A stretch of 64,000 nt of DNA from Archangium violaceum (GTDB taxonomy: Bacteria > Myxococcota > Myxococcia > Myxococcales > Myxococcaceae): NCBI RefSeq assembly GCF_016859125.1, contig NZ_CP069338.1:7627501-7691500 (forward strand), given 5' to 3'. Below the pieces are notes generated by a model. The model was not told the origin of the DNA. It was given only the letters and a program-made list of their open reading frames with translations, and ran no database searches. Made by a program: the position numbers and the translations under genes. Below, piece after piece: positions 34,435 to 63,355 of the stretch; the stretch's first letter is position 1, and each line of letters opens with the position of its first letter.

Positions 34435-34572
34435 ATGAATCAGGCTGCCGAAGTGATCAATCTCGATGAGTTCCGGAAGCGGCGTGAGTCCAGACCTTCG
34501 TCGACTCGGTCGCCCGCCCCCATGAGTCTCTGGACGCCAGTGTGGGTGTGGGTCATGGTCTGGCCCACGTGA
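34435..34572 (+). CDS. 45-residue VINLDEFRKRRE / WVWV protein
   Basis: A short gene with GGAG upstream. The N-terminus 'AAEVINLDEFRKRRESR' is a recurring opening of small bacterial proteins and predicts a basic helix. The C-terminus is aromatic and hydrophobic ('LWTPVWVWVMVWPT'), perhaps a membrane-associating tail. Its TGA overlaps the GTG start of the XRE gene by 4 nt, which supports that it is translated. Function unknown. Confidence 0.6.
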   Translation: MNQAAEVINLDEFRKRRESRPSSTRSPAPMSLWTPVWVWVMVWPT

Positions 34573-35312
34573 AATCGGTTCGTGAAAATACGCCTCCCTC
34601 GGCGGAGGACACTGAGAGCACCCCTTCGCCCGTGAAGGGAAAGGGGCGGAAGAAGGAGCAGGGCGCCAAGAAGGCGGAAGCTCCCCCACCCGAAGCACCC
34701 TCCTCCGAGGAGGAGTGGGCCTACGAGGTGGCGCACTCGGATGCGTCGACCGATCTGGCGCCCATCGTGGGCCGCAACCTGCGCCGTCTGCGCACCCAGC
34801 GGGGCCTGTCCCTGGAGCGGCTGGCCAAGGCGTCCGGGGTGAGCCGGGCCATGCTGGGGCAGATCGAGCTGGGGCAGAGCGCGCCCACCATCAACGTCAT
34901 CTGGAAGATCGCCCGGGCGTTGGGCATCCCGTTCTCGGCGCTGATCAGCACCACGGCGCAGAGCGGTACCCGGTTGATGCGCGCCAATCAGTCGAAGCGG
35001 CTCGCCTCCCATGACGGGAGCTTCAGCTCGCGCGCGCTCTTCCCGTTCGACGAGCCGAGGCGCGTGGAGTTCTACGAGCTGCGGCTGGCCGCGCACGCCG
35101 AGGAGCACGCGGACGCGCACCCGCCGGGGACGATGGAGAACCTGGTGGTGACGGTGGGGACGGTGGAGATCGACCGGGGTGACGAGCACCACGTGCTGGC
35201 CGCGGGAGACGCGATCCTGTTCGAGGCGGACGTGGCGCACGTCTACCGGAACACGGGCAACGTGGACGCGGTGATGTACCTGGTGATGACGTACGCGGAG
35301 ACGGTCGGCTAG
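34569..35312 (+). CDS. XRE-family regulator with C-terminal cupin
   Basis: 247 residues from GTG at 34569, overlapping the small gene (GTGA). A charged Pro/Lys/Glu-rich lead of ~65 residues precedes the helix-turn-helix ('GRNLRRLRTQRGLSLERLAKASGVSRAMLGQIELGQSAPTINVIWKIARAL'). The C-terminal ~110 residues form a cupin barrel ('RRVEFYELRLAAHAEEHADAHPPGTMENLVVTVG', 'LAAGDAILFEADVAHVYRN'). This HTH-cupin layout (PuuR/SutR type) senses a small molecule. The triple palindrome in front of the operon suggests autoregulation. Confidence 0.93.
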   Translation: MKSVRENTPPSAEDTESTPSPVKGKGRKKEQGAKKAEAPPPEAPSSEEEWAYEVAHSDASTDLAPIVGRNLRRLRTQRGLSLERLAKASGVSRAMLGQIELGQSAPTINVIWKIARALGIPFSALISTTAQSGTRLMRANQSKRLASHDGSFSSRALFPFDEPRRVEFYELRLAAHAEEHADAHPPGTMENLVVTVGTVEIDRGDEHHVLAAGDAILFEADVAHVYRNTGNVDAVMYLVMTYAETVG

Positions 35313-35334: not shown

Positions 35335-35379
35335 CACGAAGAGCCGGCGGGCCCTCGGGGCTTCTCGCCGGCTCTCGTG
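35335..35379. terminator. Bidirectional terminator hairpin
   Basis: Left arm CACGAAGAGCCGGCG (35335-35349) and right arm CGCCGGCTCTCGTG (35366-35379) pair with one bulge around a 16-nt loop. It sits between the convergent XRE and Met-rich genes. No long T-run, as is common in high-GC genomes. Confidence 0.6.
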
Positions 35380-35402: not shown

Positions 35403-35861
35403 CTACTTCGCGGTGCACATCATCATGGGCATGCCGTTGCACATCATCATCATCGGCATCCCCATGGCCATCATGGAGTTCATCGCGTCACAGCAGTCCT
35501 TCATCATCTCCATCTGGCCCGGGTCCATGGGCATCACCCGGCACATCATGCCGTCCTTGCCCATCTCACAGGTCATCCGGCCCATCATCGGCATCCGCAT
35601 CATCATGGGCATCATCATGGGCATGCCGCCCATCATCGGGTTCATGCCCATCATCGGCATTTGACCGCCCATCATCATCGGGTTCATGCCCATCATCGGC
35701 ATGGGCATCATGCCGCCCATCATCGGGTTCATGCCGCCCATCATCGGCATGGGCATCATGCCGCCCATCATCGGATTCATGCCCATCATCGGCATCTGAC
35801 CGCCCATCATCGGGCTCATTCCGGGCTGCATGGGCATGGGCATCTGGGAAGCTGGGGTCAT
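35403..35861 (-). CDS. Methionine-rich low-complexity protein with six Cys
   Basis: 152 residues from ATG at 35861 (GAGGA upstream). About 68 residues are Met (roughly 45%). The first ~95 residues are imperfect tandem units built from 'MNPMMGGMMPMPMMG' and 'GGQMPMMG'. The C-terminal ~55 residues contain all six Cys ('MTCEMGKDGMMCRVMP', 'MMKDCCDAMNSMM', 'MMMMCNGMPMMMC'). There is no signal peptide. MxxM and MxM motifs bind Cu(I) or Ag(I) in copper-handling proteins, so metal binding or oxidant scavenging is possible, but this is inference. Confidence 0.75.
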   Translation of the reverse strand: MTPASQMPMPMQPGMSPMMGGQMPMMGMNPMMGGMMPMPMMGGMNPMMGGMMPMPMMGMNPMMMGGQMPMMGMNPMMGGMPMMMPMMMRMPMMGRMTCEMGKDGMMCRVMPMDPGQMEMMKDCCDAMNSMMAMGMPMMMMCNGMPMMMCTAK

Positions 35862-36092
35862 GGCTCGTCCTCGTGTGACTGTGACTGTGGGTATGACTTC
35901 GGGCAGGGGACGGTAGAGAGCGGGGTACACCCGGACAATGCCCCGGTGACTTTTCCTCCAGTGAAACGGAGACGCCGCTCCCCAGGGCGGATGAAACGTG
36001 TCCGGCAGCGATCAGTGCCCGGTGCGGATGTGCACTGCCGTGCAGGCCCACCTCCCGAGAAGGCCGCCCCCGAGTTGCGATAGAACCTCCCC

Positions 36093-36815
36093 ATGAGCGC
36101 AGATCCGCGAGAGGAGGGGCCGGGCGCCTTCCCACCCACGCGCTGGACCCTCATTCGCTCGGCACGGGCCTCTCCGGAGGCACGGCGCGCGGCGCTCGAG
36201 TCGCTGCTGCGTACCTACTGGCGCCCGCTCTACGTCTTCATGCGCCGCCAGGGGCTGGACGCGGAGGCCGCGCGAGACGCCGTGCAGGAGCTGCTGCTGC
36301 GGCTGCTGGAGCACGACTTCCTCGAGCGCCTGAGCCCCGAGAAGGGCCGGTTGCGGGGCTACCTGCTGACGGCCGCGCGCAACCACCTCGTCCACCGTCA
36401 CGAGCGCTCGAACGCCGCCCGGCGGGGCGGGGGCGTGGCCGCGCTGCCCTTGGACTTCGAGCTGGCGGAGCGGATCGCCTCCGAGGATGCCCAGGCTCCG
36501 GACGAGGCCTTCGAGCGGGAGTGGGCCTCGAGCGTCATGGAGCGGGCCCTGGAGCGGCTGAAGGCCGAGTTCGACAGGGGCGAGCGCAAGGGCCCCTTCG
36601 CGCTGGTGCTCCAGTTCTTCCGTCCGGGCGAGCCGCCGAGCTACCGGGATGCGGCGGAGGCGCACGGCATGTCGCTGCCGCAGCTCAAGACGTTCCTCCA
36701 CCGGGCGCGGGTGCGCTACCGCGAGCTGGTGCGCGAGGAGGTGGTGGACACGGTGGGAGGACCCGAGGAGGCGGAGGCGGAGCTCGCCGAGCTGCTCCGG
36801 GTGCTGAAGAGATGA
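36093..36815 (+). CDS. ECF-type RNA polymerase sigma factor
   Basis: 240 residues. Region 2 is visible in 'LESLLRTYWRPLYVFMRRQGLDAEAARDAVQELLLRLLEHDFLERLSPEKGRLRGYLLTAARNHL'. Region 4 is in 'PSYRDAAEAHGMSLPQLKTFLHRARVRYRELVREEV'. It belongs to the large group of ECF-like factors that sit next to Ser/Thr kinases. Its stop overlaps the kinase start (ATGA), so the kinase probably regulates it or shares its signal. Confidence 0.9.
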   Translation: MSADPREEGPGAFPPTRWTLIRSARASPEARRAALESLLRTYWRPLYVFMRRQGLDAEAARDAVQELLLRLLEHDFLERLSPEKGRLRGYLLTAARNHLVHRHERSNAARRGGGVAALPLDFELAERIASEDAQAPDEAFEREWASSVMERALERLKAEFDRGERKGPFALVLQFFRPGEPPSYRDAAEAHGMSLPQLKTFLHRARVRYRELVREEVVDTVGGPEEAEAELAELLRVLKR

Positions 36816-38257
36816 GTGCCCGCTGCCCGCGCTGCGCGATGCCCGTGGACGACAAGCGCCTGGCGGTGTGTCCCGGCTGTCTCCTGGGCGAGGACATGGA
36901 GGATCCGGGGCGGATCGGCGCGTTGGAGCTGGAGGAGGAGATCGGCCGCGGAGGCATGGGCCGCGTCTTCCGCGCGCGCCACGTGAGGCTGGACCGTCCG
37001 GTGGCGGTGAAGTTCCTCGCGGGTGAGGCTGCTTCCAGCCCCGAGGCGCAGGCCCGGTTCGCCCGGGAGGCGAGGGCGCTGGCGCTGTTGGACCATCCGA
37101 ACATCGTCCGGGTGCACGACTTCGGAGACGAGGAATGCGAGCGCTTCCTGGTGATGGAGCTGGTGGAGGGCCGCTCCCTGGCGGAGCTGCTGCCGCTGGC
37201 TCCGGCGGAGGCCGTGCGCGTGGCGCTCCAGGTCTGCGACGCGCTGGCCTACGCGCACGCGCGCGGCGTGGTGCACCGGGACATCAAACCCGCCAACATC
37301 CTCGTGGACGGAGAGGGGCGGGTGAAGGTGACGGACTTCGGCGTCGCGCGCATCGTGCGCCAGGAGGGGCCGCGAGACACGCTCACCGCCGCGCATACCG
37401 TGGTGGGGACTCCCGAGTACATGGCGCCCGAGGCGCTCGCTGGAGCACCCCCCGCGCCGCGCATGGATGTGTACGCGTTGGGCGTGCTGCTGCACGAGAT
37501 GGTGACGGGCCGGCCACCGGTGGCGGGGGCGTCCTCCCTGCCGGGGGCGCTCGGGACGGTGGTGCGGAGGGCGGTGGCGCTCGAGCCCTCGCGGCGCTAC
37601 GCGAGTGCCCAGGCCATGGGTCTGGACCTGCGGCGGCTCGCGGACGGGGCGGCGGAGGCGGCGCTGCCTCCGGACGAGGCCATCTGGCTGCGCGCGGTGG
37701 CGGTGTTGCAGGCGGTGGCGTGCGCGCTGGTGTTGTGGGCGCTCGTCGTGTCGGTGACGCCCCGGGTGGTGCACCCCCACGAGTTGGATCCGCTCACCAT
37801 GCAGCCCGCGGCCCGGCTCGCGGATGGCCGGTGGGTGACGCGGGCGCGCTTCGAGATAGGCCCCATCCTGGGCGCGGTGGCGGGGCTCGCGGTGGCGCTC
37901 GCGGCGTACGGCCTGCTGCGCAGACACTGGCGCCACGAGGGACTGGACGTACCCGCGCCAGAGGTACCGCTGCACGAGGGCCGGACCTTCCTGGGGGTGG
38001 CGATTGCCTGCTCGGGCCTGTTCCTCCTGCGCGGCGTGCTGGAGTGGGGCGCGAGCATCTCGATGCCTCCCTTCATGCCGCTGGTGGGAGGACTGCTGGA
38101 GCTGACGGCGCTCTACCTCCTGTGCGTCTCCACCCTGGAGGCCTGGCGACGCCAGCGGCCACTCTCCCGCGAGCCGGTGATGTGGGCCGGGCTCGTCCTG
38201 ATGCTGATGCCGCCGGTGCTCGAGTTCGGTCTCTACCTGTGGCGCTGGCGGCCCTGA
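36812..38257 (+). CDS. Membrane Ser/Thr protein kinase with zinc-ribbon N-terminus
   Basis: 481 residues. The first 25 residues hold a zinc ribbon (C5, C8, C20, C23). The kinase domain is about 38-285: 'IGRGGMGRVFRARH', K67, HRD with D157, DFG 175-177, 'GTPEYMAPEALAG'. The C-terminal third has about five hydrophobic helices ('LQAVACALVLWALVVSV', 'LGAVAGLAVALAAYGLL', 'GVAIACSGLFLLRGVL', and two more). It is translationally coupled to the ECF sigma factor, as in known ECF-STK modules where the kinase phosphorylates the sigma factor. Confidence 0.92.
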   Translation: MSARCPRCAMPVDDKRLAVCPGCLLGEDMEDPGRIGALELEEEIGRGGMGRVFRARHVRLDRPVAVKFLAGEAASSPEAQARFAREARALALLDHPNIVRVHDFGDEECERFLVMELVEGRSLAELLPLAPAEAVRVALQVCDALAYAHARGVVHRDIKPANILVDGEGRVKVTDFGVARIVRQEGPRDTLTAAHTVVGTPEYMAPEALAGAPPAPRMDVYALGVLLHEMVTGRPPVAGASSLPGALGTVVRRAVALEPSRRYASAQAMGLDLRRLADGAAEAALPPDEAIWLRAVAVLQAVACALVLWALVVSVTPRVVHPHELDPLTMQPAARLADGRWVTRARFEIGPILGAVAGLAVALAAYGLLRRHWRHEGLDVPAPEVPLHEGRTFLGVAIACSGLFLLRGVLEWGASISMPPFMPLVGGLLELTALYLLCVSTLEAWRRQRPLSREPVMWAGLVLMLMPPVLEFGLYLWRWRP

Positions 38258-63085: not shown

Positions 63086-63355
63086 TCACTCGGCCGACTC
63101 GGAGTCCTTGTCGCCCTCGTCCTCCTCGTCCTCGAGATCCTCGTCGTCGTCCTCGTCGTCGAAGTCCTCGTCGTCGAAGTCCTCGTCGTTCTCGAGCTCG
63201 TCGTGCATCACCGTCTCGACGGGGACGGCCTTCTCGGCCACGTCCGGCAGGGACTCGATGTGGTGCTGGTACGCCTTCTCGTCCAGCTCGCCACTGCGCA
63301 GGTAGCGGTCGGCCGTGCGCTTGTCGAGGTACTTGGGGTCTGTCGTATCGGCCAT
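63086..63355 (-). CDS. Small protein with acidic Asp/Glu tail
   Basis: 89 residues from ATG at 63355 (GAGGAG upstream). Residues 1-45 are ordered ('YLDKRTADRYLRSGELDEKAYQHHIESLPDVAEKAVPVET'). Residues about 50-89 are nearly all Asp and Glu. No family recognised; the tail could bind cations or basic proteins. First gene of the three-gene operon. Confidence 0.78.
   Translation of the reverse strand: MADTTDPKYLDKRTADRYLRSGELDEKAYQHHIESLPDVAEKAVPVETVMHDELENDEDFDDEDFDDEDDDEDLEDEEDEGDKDSESAE

Follow-up and report, generated by a model that had tools for sequence, protein, structure and literature searches.

The Methionine-Rich Protein and Its Parts

The window, i.e., the 64-kb stretch of DNA analyzed here, carries on its minus strand (35403..35861) a CDS for a methionine-rich protein of 152 aa, which is assigned by translation and by its relatives. 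The protein includes 68 Met (44.7%), 22 Pro, 22 Gly and 6 Cys; His, Trp and Tyr are absent. Altogether 74 of the 152 residues contain sulfur. The Cys are located at residues 98, 107, 123, 124, 141, and 149. The initial annotation had described a protein with about 45% Met arranged in tandem blocks and six Cys confined to the C-terminal part. The translation bears this out exactly, and the Met-rich part is made up of degenerate tandem repeats. The repeat region is free of Cys and extends from about residue 7 to 88 (35598..35843, minus strand); its boundary was set by eye and its length varies among relatives.

Only one of the 152 residues is an I, L, V, F, W or Y, which makes a hydrophobic signal segment improbable, although Met itself is hydrophobic. 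An export signal is not visible and the protein is apparently cytosolic, in agreement with the initial assignment to the cytoplasm. The ribosome-binding site claimed at the same time has a candidate, recognized by eye, in GAGGA, 7-11 nt 5' of the ATG (35868..35872, minus strand). The terminator fared less well. A perfect 10-bp inverted repeat does lie between the convergent genes at 35340..35375, assigned to neither strand, but it lacks a T-run, and a consensus promoter and terminator scan of the locus returned nothing. The genome of the host (12.68 Mb searched) contains one copy of the Met gene; the second match (E 0.85) is not credible. Far from the locus, at 63104-63204 of the window, Tandem Repeats Finder reports a short tandem array with a TCGTCCTCG-like unit.

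A divergent gene for an ECF-type sigma factor is located at 36093-36815, and the sigma factor and serine/threonine kinase genes span 36093-38257. Both were considered as partners of the Met gene and rejected; the linkage is seen only within the genus (8 loci, 6 genomes). A reading as leader peptide or RiPP precursor was likewise dropped: the gene is monocistronic and biosynthetic neighbors were not seen.

Distribution and Selection

A protein search of the host's bacterial family gives matches at E ≤ 0.001 in 29 of 96 genomes and in 8 of 26 genera; the matches listed are free of internal stops. The gene is present in 6 of 6 genomes of the same genus, and the closest named relative is from Archangium (locus L004), so that the host would be a myxobacterium belonging to this genus or close to it. 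A contig scan for Met-rich relatives yielded 16 loci, including those from Phyllobacterium, Siculibacillus, Magnetospirillum, and Massilia. For wider genome searches a 17-row profile (A1) was built from the C-terminal domain. It matches in 30 of 195 genomes of the host's phylum, in 11 of 397 from the order of Phyllobacterium, in 2 of 385 from the class of Magnetospirillum and in 1 of 300 from the order of the Massilia record; each of the last three counts includes the genome on which the search was centered. For comparisons we used a set of 41 loci, 15 alphaproteobacterial, one betaproteobacterial and 25 from Myxococcota and others. A tblastn search of plasmids, weak owing to the low-complexity filter, gave no match, nor was a relative found in the viral contigs searched.

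The window protein matches none of the families of Pfam and NCBIfam up to E 1, and in a PDB profile search the best match has E 0.75. The mostly non-subscription literature on Met-rich proteins of myxobacteria, HOCl/MrpX, bacterial storage and sulfur starvation does not, as far as it was available, describe the family. As judged by these comparisons the Met-rich protein represents an undescribed family which is common to two bacterial phyla. A relative in a Massilia-labeled MAG (L009:3668-4174) has two domain copies, 29% Met and no XRE-cupin neighbor; this type may be an older, less Met-rich form.

Is the open frame a gene? It might have been an accidental frame in a repeat region without any coding feature. 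Low-complexity repeats often keep several frames open, and other long frames overlap here. Frame, start and domain, however, are conserved in two phyla, as is the upstream element described below. The conserved start is the ATG and not an upstream GTG. Within the C-terminal domain dN/dS ranges from 0.04 to 0.58 over all 28 pairs formed by eight close loci; synonymous sites are scarce (23-26), as ATG codons offer none. The frameshifts in relatives for which the initial annotation had suggested to look were thus not encountered: the frame is free of internal stops in the 29 genomes, its ATG is kept and dN/dS stays below 0.6. An accidental frame is therefore exceedingly improbable, and the comparisons indicate that the Met-rich ORF is a real, selected gene.

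The relatives retain the peculiar composition. Met accounts for 38-50% of the residues in 40 of 41 although the number of repeats varies. Each of these 40 proteins has only 0-8 residues that are I, L, V, F, W or Y, and His is missing from 39 of the 41. When the domains of the 15 alphaproteobacterial sequences are compared with those of the 25 other non-beta sequences, the 17,751 cells show Met paired with Met in 78% and with an aliphatic or aromatic residue (I, L, V, F, W, Y) in 4%; Met-free cells are 46% identical. At the codon level, the eight close loci show differences in 43 of 739 Met cells and residue changes in 141 of 973 cells with other codons. From these measures it follows that Met itself is preserved rather than just any hydrophobic side chain. 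The comparisons thus indicate that selection acts on Met as such, the domain core included.

The C-Terminal Domain

The repeats are followed by a conserved domain, residues 94-148 (35418..35582, minus strand), delimited by alignments and an AlphaFold2 model. It contains five of the six Cys; C149 falls just behind it. Using A1, AlphaFold2 predicts strands at 94-101 and 104-111, a helix at 114-132 and strands at 137-141 and 144-148 (mean pLDDT 78.9, pTM 0.56). Modeling of the less Met-rich Massilia module gives an identical order of elements (pLDDT 75.4, pTM 0.56). The C-terminal third is thus a predicted beta-beta-alpha-beta-beta domain. Foldseek with the two domain models (pTM 0.56) found no PDB match at E ≤ 0.001. 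Neither VIA-align with the domain model (pTM 0.56; best Z 2.3) nor a viral model library (best E 0.51) produced a credible neighbor.

The Cys are retained to different extents. Of the 41 relatives, Cys98 is present in 35, Cys107 in 39, Cys123 in 33, Cys124 in 39, Cys141 in 37, and Cys149 in 20. A lost Cys is sometimes replaced nearby in the same strand (L012, L022). According to strand alternation in the model the four best-kept Cys should face the domain core.

The XRE-Cupin Regulator

The gene convergent to the Met gene (34542..35312, plus strand) codes for an XRE-cupin regulator. The assignment relies on Pfam (HTH_3, E 1.1e-16; Cupin_2, E 6.4e-11), on neighborhood and on matches to SutR and PDB entries. 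The two genes are arranged tail to tail, 90 bp apart. A convergent XRE-cupin homolog is found in 36 of the 41 loci, 35 times within 650 bp and once (L119) 5 kb off. By group, the pairing is present in 15 of 15 alphaproteobacterial loci, 21 of 25 from Myxococcota and others and 0 of 1 from Betaproteobacteria. The five loci without such a neighbor are L108, L114, L115, L116 (contig ends soon after), and L136. Across genera and phyla the 41 loci have no other linked neighbor.

Within the host's family the regulator is encoded, at an identity of at least 57%, in all 29 genomes which have the Met gene; the Met gene is never found in a genome without it. An XRE-cupin regulator of at least 50% identity is also encoded in 15 of the 67 genomes which lack the Met gene, where it lies beside other genes. 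Thus, the regulator can exist without the Met gene. Inspection of 20 regions around the regulator in such genomes uncovered no Met-rich ORF. In L171, L173, L175, L182, and L183, all without Met gene, an XRE-cupin gene of 61-72% identity is convergent to a rimO-like gene; the gene beside the unlinked regulator in several Myxococcaceae we take to be rimO. In a tree of 58 XRE-cupin proteins the linked copies cluster by phylum, with poorly supported deep forks, and, within Myxococcaceae, the unlinked copies branch as sisters of the linked ones.

What might the regulator sense? It resembles SutR (YdcN) from E. coli along the full length (39% identity over 169 aa, E 3e-40), whereas similarity to PuuR is limited to the HTH. 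The best PDB match is 1y9q (E 6.7e-23). SutR and 1Y9Q share the XRE plus cupin build with the window regulator, yet SutR sits in a different genomic context. An excerpt of PMC7901475 reports that the cupin pocket of 1Y9Q, from Vibrio cholerae, contains D-methionine, and SutR is cited, in part of PMC11332829, as a regulator of sulfur utilization. By analogy with the D-methionine of 1Y9Q, and in view of the sulfur neighborhood presented below, we infer that the regulator senses a sulfur metabolite.

A Conserved Upstream Element

Upstream of the Met gene is a conserved element, TCC-N8-GGAGGAAA (35952..35970, minus strand). No second match occurs in the 64-kb window, for which 0.03 are expected. 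In 24 of 41 loci an exact copy lies no more than 200 bp upstream of the gene, and the 1.27 Mb of the loci, both strands, contain no further copy. Its share is 5 of 15 in alphaproteobacterial, 19 of 25 in other and 0 of 1 in beta loci, counts which are inflated by near relatives. A looser form is present in 26 of 41 loci, with 5 sites elsewhere. Among the loci it is mostly separated from the start by 96-124 nt, in the window by about 90 bp. The element is kept in L108, L115, and L116, where the adjacent regulator gene is absent.

A candidate promoter, TTGTCC - 17 nt - TACCGT (35910..35938, minus strand), was recognized by eye; its form is kept in the eight closest loci. A sigma-70-like pair, TTGTC-17-TA(C/G)NNT, was likewise recognized by eye downstream of the element in the closest genus and in its sister. 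The element would then sit near -60, a position like that of an activator site. We infer that it is bound by the XRE-cupin protein. An Rfam scan of the locus gave chance-level matches only; therefore, no known RNA element explains the motif. As the motif is missing upstream of the XRE-cupin gene, autoregulation by this route has no support.

A motif search for a regulon in four genomes resulted in 7, 13, 7, and 4 sites without a clear further target; in three of the four the site of the Met gene was recovered. The pattern read backwards as a control gave 25, 2, 3, and 0 sites, and the genome-wide count is therefore no evidence of a wider regulon. A site in the host genome by an XRE-cupin paralog (L139) was discarded; it reads as the Shine-Dalgarno sequence of a divergent dehydrogenase-like gene.

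Sulfur Genes in the Neighborhood

A panel of 17 sulfur proteins from E. coli K-12, chosen independently of matches, was compared with 9.4-kb stretches, which cover genes within 4.7 kb. It matches at 9 of the 15 alphaproteobacterial loci and in 3 of 54 control regions from the same genomes (Fisher p 1.5e-5). The controls represent 14 of the 15 genomes and were matched for size alone. Further, the loci amount to fewer than 15 independent cases because the regulators of L097, L098 and L100 are very similar and L109 and L113 are from sister genomes. A control panel of six non-sulfur E. coli proteins matches at 0 of 15 loci and in 3 of 54 control regions. In an earlier, smaller comparison, the panel of which was taken from the test loci, 3 of 14 control regions were matched besides generic ABC ATPases. 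Outside Alphaproteobacteria the sulfur panel matches at none of the 26 loci, window included. Pfam tallies covered 105 of 132 picked ORFs, 127 of 127 controls and 106 of 116 other ORFs, the ten left out of this last set being mostly the longest, and comprise the best 25 of 62, 118 and 73 families, respectively. For the 106 ORFs outside Alphaproteobacteria no sulfur family is among the best 25 of the 73.

The following names are from NCBIfam and cover genes within about 4.5 kb; several matches are under the NCBI cut-offs and denote likeness only. L097 has parts of a cystine-type ABC transporter, TauA and Xsc (both above cut-off) and TauB/TauC-like genes; L101 has TauA and an SsuC-like gene; L103 has SsuA-like, 3-mercaptopyruvate sulfurtransferase-like and YedE-like genes. 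Cystathionine beta-synthase-like genes are found in L105 and L111, a CysE-like gene in L104, SfnB (above cut-off) in L106 and a cystine-type ATPase in L099. A gene for O-acetylhomoserine sulfhydrylase (above cut-off) occurs in L098 and L100 along with nitrogenase-like genes of the D and K types, and the nitrogenase-like genes of L098 match PDB 9fmg/9d9u with E 3e-175 and 9e-156. According to part of PMC12552129, 9FMG is the methylthio-alkane reductase MarDK2H2, an enzyme which frees methanethiol for methionine. In L098 and L100 the Met-rich/XRE-cupin pair is located between the MarDK-like operon and the O-acetylhomoserine sulfhydrylase gene, which amounts to a ready-made cluster for methionine from organosulfur. 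Taken together, the alphaproteobacterial context, the kinship of the regulator and the selection on Met point to sulfur metabolism as the probable setting of the gene.

Discussion

Proceeding from the computed family, the Met selection, the XRE-cupin pairing, the upstream element and the alphaproteobacterial sulfur neighborhood, we tentatively propose, as a possibility somewhat short of an even chance, that the protein is a cytosolic reserve of methionine and sulfur under a sulfur-sensing regulator. The single-copy gene would supply a store of reduced sulfur, mainly as methionine. The SutR-like XRE-cupin protein would sense the state of the pool of sulfur amino acids and set expression via the TCC-N8-GGAGGAAA site, some 90 bp 5' of the start codon. 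With sulfur in plentiful supply Met and Cys would be deposited in the extendable Met repeats, and the folded C-terminal domain with its Met/Cys-built core would keep the chain soluble or assembled. In sulfur shortage proteolysis would return the Met. A reserve would best fit a selection based on content together with free variation of repeat number.

We know of no bacterial storage protein of this kind. Met-rich 2S albumins, delta-zein and Met-rich hexamerins are eukaryotic storage proteins from seeds and insects. They hold a protein-bound reserve of Met, as proposed here, yet no sequence relationship emerged from the searches. Several observations sit uneasily with a store. The lack of sulfur neighbors at all 26 loci outside Alphaproteobacteria speaks against it, as does the presence of the regulator in 15 of 67 genomes that lack the Met gene. 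The four Cys kept in 35-39 of 41 relatives appear to be more than a mere store needs; conserved Cys and a folded core suggest that the protein is more than a bulk store. Sulfonate and Mar genes usually serve in sulfur shortage. A Met-rich protein should be avoided under this condition according to work on sulfur sparing (PMC8557817). With neighbors of a starvation type, regulation of the Met gene would therefore run opposite to theirs.

The metal-binding and oxidant-scavenging functions favored by the initial annotation find little echo in the context. As an oxidant sink, cytosolic Met and Cys would be oxidized by HOCl or peroxide and so spare other proteins. Methionine sulfoxide reductases, together with thioredoxin, would then reduce them again, and the adjacency of sulfur genes would be incidental. 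Nearly half of the residues are Met, and the easily oxidized residues are nearly all reversible because His, Trp and Tyr are absent from the window protein. A precedent exists in MrpX (Azospira suillum) and BcrX (Brucella melitensis), which are small, Met-rich and have a dedicated local regulator, as here. These two peptides reside in the periplasm, share a transcript with a YedY/MsrPQ-type reductase and are under ECF sigma/anti-sigma control, as stated in parts of PMC8315932. The window protein, in contrast, has no visible export signal and has a Cys-bearing domain; ECF sigma/anti-sigma control was not found, the conserved partner being the XRE-cupin gene, which is of SutR type and neither a peroxide sensor nor a redox ECF system. 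An msrA gene is near 0 and an msrB-like gene near 1 of the 41 loci (L099), i.e., 40 have no MsrA/B neighbor; msrP and msrQ were outside the panel. The conserved Cys geometry and the sulfur-gene context also argue against a sink, which we consider unlikely. A soft-metal protein would bind Cu(I) or Ag(I) at a core site formed by the four best-kept Cys and, with low affinity, in sponge-like repeats; this would explain the retention of these Cys and their reappearance in the same strand. Yet relatives of copA, cusA, cusB, cusF, and cusR are near 0 of 41 loci (CueR/CsoR sensors were outside the panel), and the regulator belongs to none of the metal sensor families, copper sensors included. Usual copper sponges are built from Met and His, the latter of which is missing from nearly all relatives, and free Met metal sites are more appropriate to the periplasm than to the cytosol. 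We hold a metal function to be quite unlikely. To our knowledge, either kind of sponge would be the most Met-dense cytosolic example.

Alternatively, the protein might be a sulfur sensor or scaffold, in which the Met-rich part forms condensates that respond to Met oxidation or sulfur status and the domain recruits a partner. A low-complexity Met region attached to a small folded domain fits, as does the genomic link to sulfur metabolism. The Met density of Pbp1, the ataxin-2 homolog of yeast, is far below that of the window protein. Pbp1, a precedent according to part of PMC8394241, similarly has a Met-rich low-complexity stretch in a modular protein, but it is a eukaryotic RNA-binding protein without a Cys domain. 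The regulator gene is the only conserved partner, and the repeats have no aromatic residues, which makes such a role improbable. Returning to the reserve, a more specific version is speculative and rather doubtful: a two-gene, horizontally patchy cassette might act as a methionine protein bank which is filled and emptied via its own operator by a sulfur-sensing XRE-cupin protein.

The link to a sulfur regulon makes this a testable question in culturable hosts such as Phyllobacterium and Archangium. A reserve, if true, would be the first case of bacteria storing methionine in a protein, an idea comparable to cyanophycin for nitrogen. Responses to sulfur starvation and sulfur sparing would then have to be read differently, and the system may become a tool for the production of Met-rich proteins.
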